Shown here piece by piece: positions 41,879 to 45,354 of a DNA stretch of 45,354 nt. Every line of letters begins with the position of its first letter. The first letter of the stretch is position 1. A program made the translations under genes and the position numbers. The stretch covers positions 1 through 45,354 of the forward strand of contig JAAYQR010000001.1 of the NCBI GenBank assembly GCA_012519205.1, written 5' to 3'. The notes beneath the pieces were generated by a model. It was not told the DNA's origin. It did not search any database and worked only from the letters and a program-made list of their open reading frames with translations. Source of the DNA: Candidatus Epulonipiscium sp. Its GTDB lineage: Bacteria; Bacillota; Clostridia; Lachnospirales; Defluviitaleaceae.

Positions 41879-41909
41879 GAGTGTAATAAGATAAGTAAAT
41901 AAAGGCTTT

Positions 41910-41958
41910 CCGTGATTTGAGGTCTGGTTTTAGCCGGAAGGATAATCACGGTTTTTTT
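41910..41958 (+). terminator. Terminator after rlmD
   Basis: CCGTGATT (41910-41917) pairs with AATCACGG (41944-41951), closing a 26-base loop that itself holds short pairing segments. Seven T's follow the stem. Confidence 0.8.
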
Positions 41959-42090
41959 GCTTTGAGGGAAAATATCAAAGAATGGTGAACTGCTCATTGG
42001 ATTTACTAATTTGAATGTGGGATGGGTGAGTTGATAAGTTTGATAGCAAAAGTGTGGTGTGTTGACAGGATTGCTGTAAGAAAAAGATGA
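41959..42090. other. Gene-free spacer before the methyltransferase cassette
   Basis: This is the first part of a 315-base stretch without a gene (41879-42193). It is more G/T-rich than its neighbours. Open frames here, including a 114-codon one on the minus strand, show no ribosome binding site and no recognisable protein, so they are not called. TTGACA at 42062-42067 has no matching -10. The boundary between core genome and accessory cassette probably lies in here, but no clear attachment site was seen. Confidence 0.5.
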
Positions 42091-42115
42091 TTTGAATTAA
42101 GTGACTTAAATCAAA
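42091..42115 (+). promoter_or_regulatory. Operator palindrome 1 (upstream of -35)
   Basis: A 25-bp palindrome centred on G42103: core TTAAGT-G-ACTTAA (42097-42109), flanked by matching TTTGA / TCAAA with a single mismatched pair. It sits just upstream of the -35 of the methyltransferase promoter. A near-identical copy lies 66 bp downstream, so both are probable binding sites of one dimeric regulator. Confidence 0.75.
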
Positions 42116-42121
42116 AAAACG

Positions 42122-42150
42122 TTGACTTCTATATAATAAACTGCTATAAT
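42122..42150 (+). promoter_or_regulatory. Promoter of C5-methyltransferase cassette
   Basis: TTGACT (42122-42127), exactly 17 bases, then TATAAT (42145-42150). It is bracketed by the two TTAAGTnACTTAA palindromes. Confidence 0.85.
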
Positions 42151-42158
42151 CGTAAAAG

Positions 42159-42179
42159 TGAATTAAGTTACTTAAATCA
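42159..42179 (+). promoter_or_regulatory. Operator palindrome 2 (downstream of start point)
   Basis: A second copy of the palindrome, centred on T42169: core TTAAGT-T-ACTTAA (42163-42175) with TGA / TCA flanks. It lies between the predicted transcription start (about 42157) and the ribosome binding site GAGGTGA. Over 21 bases (42160-42180) it matches copy 1 with one difference. Confidence 0.75.
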
Positions 42180-42193
42180 AGAGGTGAAATGAA

Positions 42194-43486
42194 ATGACTA
42201 GAGGTGGCAAACGCCCAAATGCTGGAAGAACAGCAATTATCGGAAAAGAAATGAAAATAAAGATACCAGATGACATATATGAACAAGTAGATGAGAACTT
42301 TACTGGAAAAACTATTCAAGAAAGAATTCGGGAGTGCTTAGAATATGGAATAAACGCAAAACTCACAAATGTTTCGAATGTTTCGGAAAAAACATATAAT
42401 GTCGTAGACTTGTTTTCTGGTGCTGGAGGGTTGTCTAGAGGTTTTATGGATGCGGGATTTAATGTTGTTTTAGGCGTTGATTTTGATGATGCCGCTTTAA
42501 AGACGTTCAAGGAGAATCATGGTAATGCAGAAGCTATGAAGTTAGATTTATTTGATCATGGAAACATAGAAAAAATATATGATTATTTAATTAAAAGGGA
42601 AATCAAATTGGATGTCCTGGTTGGTGGACCACCTTGCCAAGGATTTAGTTTAGCTGGAAAAAGAGAAGAGTTTGATAAGAGAAATGTTTTATATTCTGCT
42701 ATGGTAAAAGCATCCAAAAGGATAAAACCAAAGGTTGTCGTTCTAGAAAATGTCCCAGGAATGTTAACTCTTTATAATGGAGCAGGAGCTAAGAGGGTTA
42801 GGGAAGATTTTGAACAAATTGGTTATCATGTTTACGAGCCTAAAATTTTATATGCACCAGAGTATGGAATTCCACAGATAAGAAAGCGTGTATTTTTTGT
42901 TATGACTCTAAAAGATGAAGTACAAGGTGAGTTTAATTATCCGCTTCCGGAACTATTTGAAAATGAGTTTGTTACTTGTGAAGATGCTATTGGTAATTTA
43001 CCATCATTAGTTGGTGCGAAAGATTTTTCTTTAAATCAAGTATTTGACTATCCTTCTGCGCCGACAAATGAATATGAAAAATATATGAGAAAAAATTCTA
43101 ATAAAATATATAACCATACTCCGACGAAACACGCCGATGAGACCGTGAGACTAATTTCTTTAGTTCCAGAAGGTAAAAATTATAAAGCTTTACCATTGGA
43201 GGAGCTTAAAAAAAGGAAATTTAAATACAATGAGGCACTGACTAGGTATGATAGCAAAAGGCCTTCGAGAACAATTGATACAGGTCACAGAACCCATTTT
43301 CATTACAAATGGAATAGAATTCCGACTGTTCGTGAAGCGGCCCGTTTACAGTCATTTCCTGATGATTTCATATTTTATGGTAATAAGCAAGAACAATATA
43401 AACAAGTAGGGAATGCGGTTCCTCCACTTCTTGGAAAAGCAGTAGCTACTAAAGTGAAGGAGCTTTTAGACAATGAGAAAAATTAA
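42194..43486 (+). CDS. C5-cytosine DNA methyltransferase with N-terminal ribbon-helix-helix domain
   Basis: This 430-aa protein has two parts. Residues about 1-57 look like a ribbon-helix-helix DNA-binding domain: basic GGKRPNAGR, the strand MKIKIP (20-25), helix DDIYEQVDENF and helix TIQERIRECLEYGI. From residue 70 it is a full m5C methyltransferase: motif I VVDLFSGAGGLSRGF, motif IV GGPPCQGFS with nucleophile Cys148, ENVPGM (VI), QIRKRVFF (VIII) and QVGNAVPP (X), with a target-recognition stretch between. The ATG follows AAGAGGTGA. It overlaps the next methyltransferase gene by 14 bases. The RHH part likely binds the twin palindromes at the promoter and controls its own expression (inference). 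Confidence 0.88.
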   Translation: MTRGGKRPNAGRTAIIGKEMKIKIPDDIYEQVDENFTGKTIQERIRECLEYGINAKLTNVSNVSEKTYNVVDLFSGAGGLSRGFMDAGFNVVLGVDFDDAALKTFKENHGNAEAMKLDLFDHGNIEKIYDYLIKREIKLDVLVGGPPCQGFSLAGKREEFDKRNVLYSAMVKASKRIKPKVVVLENVPGMLTLYNGAGAKRVREDFEQIGYHVYEPKILYAPEYGIPQIRKRVFFVMTLKDEVQGEFNYPLPELFENEFVTCEDAIGNLPSLVGAKDFSLNQVFDYPSAPTNEYEKYMRKNSNKIYNHTPTKHADETVRLISLVPEGKNYKALPLEELKKRKFKYNEALTRYDSKRPSRTIDTGHRTHFHYKWNRIPTVREAARLQSFPDDFIFYGNKQEQYKQVGNAVPPLLGKAVATKVKELLDNEKN

Positions 43487-44768
43487 AGTTGTAGATTTGT
43501 TTTCTGGCGCGGGAGGATTGTTAGAAGGCTTCATGCAATCTGGATTGTACATACCTCAAGCATCGGTAGAGTGGGAAAAAGCACCTGTGGATACACTGAG
43601 AAACAGGTTGAAAACCAAATGGGGGATCTCTGATGCAAATGACACAGTAATTTGGTTTGATATGCAAAGGACAGACGAATTGTTTAGTGGGTTTGATGAT
43701 GAGAAATATGGAAAATCTAAAGGGTTGGATTATTATATTGGTGATAAGACAGATGTGATTATTGGTGGACCGCCGTGTCAGGCCTATTCTCAAGCTGGAC
43801 GTACAAAAGATGAGCACGGTATGAAATATGACTATAGAAATTATTTGTTCGAGTATTATTTGAAAACTGTAGATAGATATCAACCTGAATTATTTGTATT
43901 TGAAAATGTCCCTGGAATGTTATCTGCTATGCCAGATGGCACGCCAATTGTAGATTTAATAAAAGCTGACGTTCAAAAAATAGGGTATGAAATTGTTGAA
44001 GATATTCGTAATCATGCTTTGATTGATATGAGTGATTATGGAGTGCCCCAAAACAGGAAAAGAGTAATTCTGGTCGGATTGAAAAAGAATGGGAATACCT
44101 ACGAAGAATGCCAACAGTTTCTAACTGAATTTTACGATAAAATACTTCCTAAGTATCAAAGCGAGAAAAAAATATCTGTTGAAGAAGCCATAGGTGATTT
44201 GCCTAAAGCGTTCCCTCTAGAGGAGCCTGTATATATCAAAGGAATAGGAAGACAATCATACACAGTTCCGGATGGAGACCCAACTTGGGGACATGTGGTT
44301 AGATTTCAGAACCAACGAGATATTGAAATCTTTGGTTTATTGACTGAAGACATTGAAAGTGGCAAGAATGAATTACAAAGTGCTGATAAATTAAATGAGA
44401 TTTATAACAAAGCTACAGGAGGAAACTCTAAAGTGCATAAATACCATGTCCTTAGAAGAGATCAACCAAGCACGACAATCACTGCTCATCTCCATAAGGA
44501 TGGGTTGCGATTTATACATTATGATTCTCAACAGAGTAGAACCATAACAGTTAGGGAAGCTGCTCGACTTCAGTCATTTCCAGATGATTTTGAATTTTTG
44601 TCTACTCGTGGAAATCAGTATAAAATGATAGGGAATGCTGTTCCGCCAGAATTTGCAAGAAGGTTGTCATCTGCGGTTAGAGATTTTTTAATTTATCTAG
44701 ATGAGAATGAAAATCGGAAATTAGATTTCCATCAAAATTGGGAGGAGGTTTCAAAATGCCAATTATAG
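43473..44768 (+). CDS. Second C5-cytosine DNA methyltransferase
   Basis: This 431-aa methyltransferase has no N-terminal extension. Motifs are KVVDLFSGAGGLLEGF at the very start (I), GGPPCQAYSQAGR with nucleophile Cys102 (IV), ENVPGM (VI), NRKRVILVG (VIII) and MIGNAVPPEFA (X). It differs widely from the first enzyme, especially in the region before motif IX, so it should recognise a different sequence or the other strand of an asymmetric site. Two linked C5 methyltransferases are typical of type IIS systems such as those cutting near an asymmetric site. The ATG at 43473 overlaps gene 1, and its end overlaps the next gene by 13 bases, so all three are one operon. Confidence 0.9.
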   Translation: MRKIKVVDLFSGAGGLLEGFMQSGLYIPQASVEWEKAPVDTLRNRLKTKWGISDANDTVIWFDMQRTDELFSGFDDEKYGKSKGLDYYIGDKTDVIIGGPPCQAYSQAGRTKDEHGMKYDYRNYLFEYYLKTVDRYQPELFVFENVPGMLSAMPDGTPIVDLIKADVQKIGYEIVEDIRNHALIDMSDYGVPQNRKRVILVGLKKNGNTYEECQQFLTEFYDKILPKYQSEKKISVEEAIGDLPKAFPLEEPVYIKGIGRQSYTVPDGDPTWGHVVRFQNQRDIEIFGLLTEDIESGKNELQSADKLNEIYNKATGGNSKVHKYHVLRRDQPSTTITAHLHKDGLRFIHYDSQQSRTITVREAARLQSFPDDFEFLSTRGNQYKMIGNAVPPEFARRLSSAVRDFLIYLDENENRKLDFHQNWEEVSKCQL

Positions 44769-45298
44769 ATTCAAGGAGTGATTCTAAATTTGACGCACTC
44801 ATACGTACTAACAAAGCAGATTCATTAATGTCTTTTATCATGGCAACATATAATGTAAAAAAAACAGAAAATAGAAAGTCAGAAGTTGCTAATCGTTTAA
44901 AAAGTGCATATGAACTTTTCAGAGAAAATATAAAAGGTAGTGACAGTGGTGCTGGTAGCTATGGGCAAGGTGAACGAGATATTGCGGATCAATTCGAGAG
45001 TCACTATACCATGGGATACGAGATGGGAATTTGGCAAGATAGCGATTTTACGTTAAGTCCACTTGCAATAAAAGTAGCAAAGTATGAAATAACAGTATCT
45101 GAATATATTGGAATAGTATTTACAAACCTTTTTACATTTTTCACAAAGAATGGAGAGAGTGTTTATCATCATTTTTTATATGAAATATTAAATAGCGCAA
45201 TATCTAAAGGGTTTATAGATAGTGCTATACTGGACCTATGTCAATACTTTGGACACAAAAAGTTGAACATTTTCTCTCTGCATGATATTAATACGTAG
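44756..45298 (+). CDS. Probable restriction-subunit fragment, likely truncated by an IS end
   Basis: This is the third gene of the methyltransferase operon (ATG at 44756 after GGAGGAGGT). As read it is 180 aa. Residues 1-161 look like a natural protein: SKFDALIRTNKADSL, SGAGSYGQGERDIADQF, and a helical segment SEYIGIVFTNLFTFF. No nuclease motif such as PD-(D/E)XK or HNH is visible in this part. Position and coupling suggest a restriction endonuclease or its N-terminal domain. From about 45239 the reading frame runs into what looks like an IS terminus, so the last 20 residues are probably not native and the gene is broken. A short stand-alone protein is the alternative. Confidence 0.55.
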   Translation: MPIIDSRSDSKFDALIRTNKADSLMSFIMATYNVKKTENRKSEVANRLKSAYELFRENIKGSDSGAGSYGQGERDIADQFESHYTMGYEMGIWQDSDFTLSPLAIKVAKYEITVSEYIGIVFTNLFTFFTKNGESVYHHFLYEILNSAISKGFIDSAILDLCQYFGHKKLNIFSLHDINT

Positions 45299-45354
45299 AG
45301 AAAGATTACTAAGCTGCAAGAATCTCATCTTCAACCTGCTGTGGGGTTTTATAA
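45239..45354 (-). mobile_element. Partial insertion sequence (IS3/IS481-type end), running off the window
   Basis: The sequence from 45239 begins TGTCAATACTTTGGACAC, similar in style to terminal repeats of IS3/IS481-type elements, which often start TG and contain TTGGACAC (from memory). About 70 bases further in, a minus-strand frame is open to the window edge and ends as a transposase-like C terminus. The other end is outside the window, so neither the full repeat nor the target duplication can be checked. Confidence 0.5.
45309..45353 (-). CDS. Transposase C-terminal fragment (partial)
   Basis: On the minus strand the last 14 codons of an open frame read YKTPQQVEDEILAA and then a stop at 45309-45311. 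The GYKTP-type ending is common near the C terminus of DDE-type IS3/IS481 transposases. The rest lies beyond the window. With so few residues this is a pattern match only, supported by the IS-like end at 45239. Confidence 0.35.
   Translation of the reverse strand, partial: YKTPQQVEDEILAA

Follow-up and report, generated by a model that had tools for sequence, protein, structure and literature searches.

A C5-cytosine methyltransferase with a ribbon-helix-helix-like N terminus as a candidate repressor of its own LlaJI-type operon

The C5-cytosine methyltransferase M1, encoded near the end of a contig of Candidatus Epulonipiscium sp. (JAAYQR010000001.1, positions 1 to 45,354; this whole stretch is termed the window), joins a ribbon-helix-helix (RHH)-like N terminus to a methylase domain, and comparison of sequences makes it probable, at roughly 0.74, that it represses its own operon through a site at +1. 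Palindromic sites are found at the M1 promoter, and there alone, in each of four genomes that encode the fused domain, with one site placed at the expected transcription start. Restriction-modification systems must methylate before cutting, and control in the literature cited below is exerted by helix-turn-helix (HTH) domains, fused or separate, or by promoter methylation. If our reading is true, self-repression would have evolved among methylases on another DNA-binding fold too, in a candidate two-part module as compact as about 66 residues plus 23 bp.

Operon and promoter

The C5-cytosine methylase domain occupies residues 68-422 of M1; M2 overlaps the end of M1, the start of R1 follows, and the contig ends inside R1 (Table 1). 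The same M1 is present on metagenome contig L028, where a T run differs by one base and the frame is thereby broken. This contig continues into an AAA-type R1 and then an R2 with a Pfam RE_LlaJI match of 1.6e-32, because of which we regard the window as holding the head of a LlaJI-type operon. The LlaJI-type gene order (two C5 methylases, a McrB-like AAA subunit and an RE_LlaJI subunit) is thus found by way of L028 and of the relatives described below. At 45231-45354, R1 runs into a repeat with a 99% identical copy near the end of contig C24; the repeat resembles an insertion-element end cutting R1 in this genome, and no transposase gene was seen. At the other side of the operon, positions 1-5643 of L028 consist of other DNA with a recombinase-like gene, which replaces the window sequence up to about 41837. 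This junction, which resembles an integration site, coincides with the 3' end of the RNA-methylase-like gene upstream of M1, presumably rlmD.

The promoter named in the preliminary description, TTGACT-17-TATAAT, is confirmed, its 17-bp spacer and both hexamers lying between the two palindromes O1 and O2. Their coordinates also agree with the claim that one palindrome precedes the -35 element and the other lies between the start point and the ribosome binding site: O2 begins 7 bases past the -10 element, approximately where transcription is expected to start, and extends to the ribosome binding site. The ATG of M1 at 42194 is closely preceded by an in-frame stop at 42185.

Table 1. Positions of the features discussed, numbered from the first letter of the window
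Feature	Position	Strand	Remark
O1, upstream palindrome TTGAATTAAGTGACTTAAATCAA	42092-42114		7 bp before the -35 element; from sequence searches and resampling
-35 element, TTGACT	42122-42127	+	Consensus match
-10 element, TATAAT	42145-42150	+	Consensus match
O2, palindrome GTGAATTAAGTTACTTAAATCAA	42158-42180		At the expected transcription start; position common to three relatives
Ribosome binding site, AGAGGTG	42180-42186	+	Read from the sequence
M1, C5-cytosine methyltransferase with RHH-like N terminus	42194-43486	+	430 aa
RHH-like domain of M1, residues about 18-56	42245-42361	+	Strand at residues 18-25 (KEMKIKIP), helices starting at 26 and 41
M2, second C5-cytosine methyltransferase	43473-44768	+	431 aa
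R1 start, McrB-like subunit	44756-45231	+	Frame departs from that of L028 near 45231, at the repeat start

The N-terminal domain and its relatives

Direct scans of the M1 N terminus against Pfam and NCBIfam gave no RHH match, and residues 1-67 gave no HTH match in either collection. The profile A4, built from five N termini, matches four stand-alone proteins in other genomes (E 7e-5 to 8e-4), two of which pass the Pfam RHH_1 cut-off, and alignment by hhalign of the fused N-termini profile with these stand-alone proteins reached 96.5% (E 7.6e-10), a profile relationship to the RHH superfamily. Against solved structures, the joint profile of N termini and stand-alone proteins found NikR as its best match (E 0.086), in the RHH register, and the stand-alone proteins alone found CopG at 0.38; profile A4 alone returned weak, unrelated names only. 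The PHROG family 4738, 'transcriptional repressor', matched locus L026, discussed below, at 1.4e-7; for the fused N termini its matches were far weaker, at 0.05 to 0.12 in three of the four. Profile comparison therefore supports the RHH-like N terminus that had been proposed from the sequence, and would place a regulatory-type domain ahead of the C5 methylase domain of M1.

In the structure prediction that had been suggested as a check, AlphaFold2 monomer models of low confidence (pTM 0.31 and 0.38) give an extended segment at 18-25, a first helix at 26-37 in one model and 26-35 in the second, and another helix at 41-66; fold searches with these models yielded no significant match, the weak rows including FitA and MazE-mt1, which we take to be RHH proteins. 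The four fused proteins share the putative strand residues K18, E19, K21 and K23, positions at which L026 differs, and a GGKRPNAGR arm (residues 4-12) stands ahead of the RHH-like part. M1 resembles CopG/NikR-type repressors in its predicted strand-helix-helix order, its charged strand residues and a palindrome at its own promoter, but differs from them in being fused to an enzyme, in its GGxRPxAGR arm, and in being too distant for a direct Pfam match. CopG represses its own promoter.

A scan of genome contigs found fused M1 in Macrococcus sp. DPC7161 (locus L019; 72% identity over residues 1-429), and 157 genomes of the order of this Macrococcus contained two further fused loci (L053/L057 and L054/L058), bringing the fused form to four genomes plus L028. 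Around the window's own genome, 398 genomes of the phylum, 295 of the order and 391 of the class held no further fused copy, nor did 398 of the class of the Macrococcus genome or 146 of the family of genome G367; these samples overlap, and each is part of a larger group. The loci L019, L057 and L058 all continue from M1 into M2, a McrB-like R1 and a LlaJI-like R2. The last is RE_LlaJI in L057 (1.8e-42) and L019 (1e-9); R2 of L058 had no Pfam match at 0.001 and is 50% identical to that of L019, and the R1 proteins of these two loci are 48% identical. As they share one order, the three loci are not fully independent. Two neighbouring genes were seen in passing: a Vsr-type mismatch endonuclease gene behind the operon at 13441-13857 of L058, and an additional C5 methylase gene (Pfam 1.5e-48) at 5251-6516 of L057, just upstream of the fused-M1 operon.

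Among 23 viral loci, L028 alone was used, the other 22 matching the methylase domain only. The M1 N terminus matched one plasmid record at E 0.1 and three phage records at E 9. Full-length M1 had at least 5000 plasmid matches; among those listed, H6 and H17, whose alignments start before residue 30, sit inside longer proteins of other kinds according to their annotation. Two hits were dropped as chance matches, namely L027, presumably a LytR-CpsA-Psr-type protein, and L063, in which no RHH gene was seen. In L061 and L065 the RHH gene stands alone, with no methylase in the short stretches covered.

Palindromes at the M1 promoters

Twin near-identical palindromes around the M1 promoter, 66 bp centre to centre, had been noticed at the outset, and this observation holds: O1 and O2 are identical at 21 of 23 positions, and their centres lie 66.0 bp, or 6.29 turns, apart. 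The cores TTAAGTGACTTAA (42097-42109) and TTAAGTTACTTAA (42163-42175) are the sole exact matches in the window, and the exact 13-bp core occurs at the same two places only in the whole 2.13-Mb genome. With up to two mismatches it matches five times in the window, against a chance mean of 7.57, and the pattern read backwards likewise finds two matches per strand in the whole genome. Because this reversed control matches equally often, the 13-bp core alone is not rare; the improbable feature is the pair of 23-mers, since the best pair in 1000 first-order resamplings of 41880-42193 agreed at only 19 positions. Ten of the 11 arm pairs of O1 are formed, which was equalled in 0.4% of 2000 resampled 350-bp upstream regions. 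Both sites have GAATT on the left and AAATC on the right, and this shared internal asymmetry suggests that one probably derives as a copy from the other.

Each relative has one 23-bp palindrome, located by eye between the -10 element and the ribosome binding site: TTGATTAAAAGGACTTTAATCAA in L019, TTGAAAAAAGAAACTTTAATCAA in L057 and TTGATAAAAGTACTTTTTATCAA in L058. Directly before these sites, -35 and -10 elements with 17-bp spacing can be proposed (TTTACT/TAATAT, TTTACT/TATAAT and TTTACA/TAATAT, respectively), with gaps from -10 to site of 6, 7 and 3 bp, compared with 7 bp in the window. These promoters are proposals because other pairs score slightly higher in L019 (8.5 vs 8) or equally in L058 (a tie at 9).

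Palindrome strength alone was not significant in the three relatives, being equalled by 24.5%, 83% and 35% of resampled sequences, and for this reason a motif-based test was chosen, in which the consensus was drawn from the window sites alone, without the relatives' own sites. The L019 site agrees with this consensus at 18 of 22 positions, a score reached by 3 of 5000 first-order resampled upstream regions of 120 bp and 15 of 5000 of 350 bp; the L057 site also scores 18/22 (6 and 10 of 5000, respectively). The L058 site is a weak match at 16/22, reached by 256 of 5000 regions at 120 bp and 684 of 5000 at 350 bp. In all three loci, the best upstream position for the window consensus is the palindrome site itself. 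Elsewhere in the 13-19 kb searched per locus, L019 and L057 have no position at 18, and L058 has one other at 16 in 19 kb. Four methylase relatives that lack the fused domain (L008, L021, L022 and L023) score 12-14/22, which is chance level.

With a relaxed pattern derived from the five sites, the four genomes yield five matches, all at M1 promoters, against none for its reversed control, and genomes G006 and G367 yield none; since these sites went into the pattern, the evidence lies only in its lack of matches elsewhere. The preliminary description had held that homologues with the N terminus and no palindrome at their promoters would refute the proposed design; this did not occur, as a like-formatted 23-bp palindrome is present in all three other fused loci, L058 with the weak match given above. 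An upstream site of the O1 type is present in this genome and its metagenome copy L028 only. The shared design is one putative operator at the transcription start, not two.

Self-repression, its alternatives and known systems

RHH domains pair as dimers, and their two-stranded ribbon enters the major groove. We infer for M1 an RHH fold, binding to the operator as an oligomer, and repression: M1 dimers would contact the operator through the RHH ribbon, the 23-bp palindrome (about TTGATWAAAGTNACTTTWATCAA) would have room for two RHH dimers, and M1 bound at about +1 to +23 would block RNA polymerase. Expression of the operon (M1, M2, R1 and R2) would thereby be lowered, and the enzyme level held by negative feedback. 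In this genome, O1 probably adds affinity or cooperativity.

That M1 might instead act through both palindromes jointly, by looping or bridging around the promoter, accords with the 21/23 identity of O1 and O2 and with their position on either side of it, yet O1 has no counterpart in L019, L057 or L058, and the 66-bp spacing, at 6.29 turns, counts against it as well. As the upstream site is confined to this genome and the relatives have one site, the two-site looped design first envisaged is unsupported, and looping was dropped as the main reading; we consider joint action unlikely. Quite unlikely, too, is control of the kind described for LlaJI, in which M1 would bind the promoter after methylation of its recognition sites there, leaving the palindromes secondary. 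In its favour, the operon type is the same, and recognition sites within the promoter are reported as the means by which M1.LlaJI governs its operon (PMC11779793, citing a 2005 paper). Against it, the 300 bp upstream of M1 contain neither GACGC nor GCGTC in any of the four fused loci, whereas the LlaJI locus of Lactococcus pNP40 has one of each; the two LlaJI methylases share only 25-26% identity with M1, however, so that the recognition site of M1 may be another one and might lie in the promoter. The pNP40 LlaJI promoter (L067 2575-2624) contains a long near-perfect palindrome that includes both GACGC and GCGTC.

The pairing of M1 with the palindromes is itself putative, which leaves some room for another cell protein as their ligand, the RHH domain of M1 serving in dimerisation or in targeting the enzyme. 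A host regulator with other targets is ill-suited to this role, however, because the relaxed pattern sits at the M1 promoter alone in each of the four genomes; moreover, the site accompanies the fused domain and is absent from methylase relatives without it, and we judge such a ligand very improbable. It is hardly credible that the palindrome acts as a leader RNA hairpin near the ribosome binding site. The L019 and L058 leaders are indeed more stably folded than most of their shuffled versions (z -1.98 and -2.58), but those of the window and L057 do not stand out (z -0.11 and -0.77), the predicted fold of the window leader differs from the palindrome, and O1, upstream of the promoter, would not be transcribed from it. 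With folding inconsistent across the four loci, the hairpin was rejected.

Repression of its own operon by M1 through the site at +1 would join a known class of regulators. The available text of one account counts six C5 methylases with proven regulatory function (PMC3695355). As far as the accessible parts of three papers go (PMC3978073, PMC3695355, PMC12707154), M.SsoII, M.Ecl18kI, M.EcoRII, M.MspI and M.ScrFIA resemble M1 in that some 70 N-terminal residues precede the C5 methylase domain and that their own promoter contains an inverted repeat distinct from the methylation site; their N terminus is helix-turn-helix (C-protein-like in the SsoII-like enzymes), whereas that of M1 is RHH-like, and the putative 23-bp operator of M1 at +1 is unrelated to theirs. 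For Ecl18kI, enzyme and RNA polymerase are described as competing for the promoter, and regulation as needing the methylase domain (PMC3695355, in its available text); for EcoRII, repression is stated to require methylated substrate sites (accessible portion of PMC12707154). By analogy, either polymerase competition or dependence on methylated sites might refine the action of M1.

Within its own operon type, a close counterpart is LlaJI of pNP40, which likewise unites two C5 methylases, a McrB-like R1 and an RE_LlaJI R2 in one operon; the N terminus of its first methylase is a different one and matches neither RHH nor HTH models. The open-licence literature, in so far as its text was accessible, yielded no account of a regulator that fuses RHH to a methylase. 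The preliminary description did not recognise the system as LlaJI-type, and M1.LlaJI already figures in a list of C5 methylases known to act as repressors of their own genes (PMC3978073). Fused helix-turn-helix methylase repressors are already known; the putative RHH head would be new.

C-protein controlled systems also regulate themselves through a small DNA-binding domain that acts on palindromes, as is proposed for M1, but their regulator is a separate gene, whereas in M1 the domain is part of the methylase. No separate small regulator gene was found upstream of M1 in the window, where the domain is in frame with the enzyme. A broader and rather doubtful extension would see RHH as a second, independent solution to methylase self-control, with heads exchanged between methylases (a separate HTH gene in G006 and p275D, a separate RHH gene in G367, a fused RHH in four genomes) and the operon reading out methylation need. 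In the fused form, M1 would then be divided between the operator and unmethylated chromosomal sites, and the operon would in this way sense the methylation still required.

A separate Cro/C1-type HTH gene lies just upstream of M1 in G006 (62% in the alignment), in plasmid p275D (54%, among the matches listed) and in phage record L023. The nearest methylase relatives among the matches listed (L008, L021 and L023) all have a small separate HTH gene upstream of M1; the small protein of L022 was scanned and no HTH was found. The RHH protein of L026 in G367 had no match among plasmids, and an operator shared with its gene is not claimed, as 587 of 5000 resampled 120-bp regions also attain its score of 15/22. 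At this locus (1501-2689), which has no clear operator, the two parts are separate genes: one for a 61-aa RHH-like protein, overlapping the beginning of the other, a single C5 methylase gene. The locus is a split counterpart of the RHH-methylase fusion.
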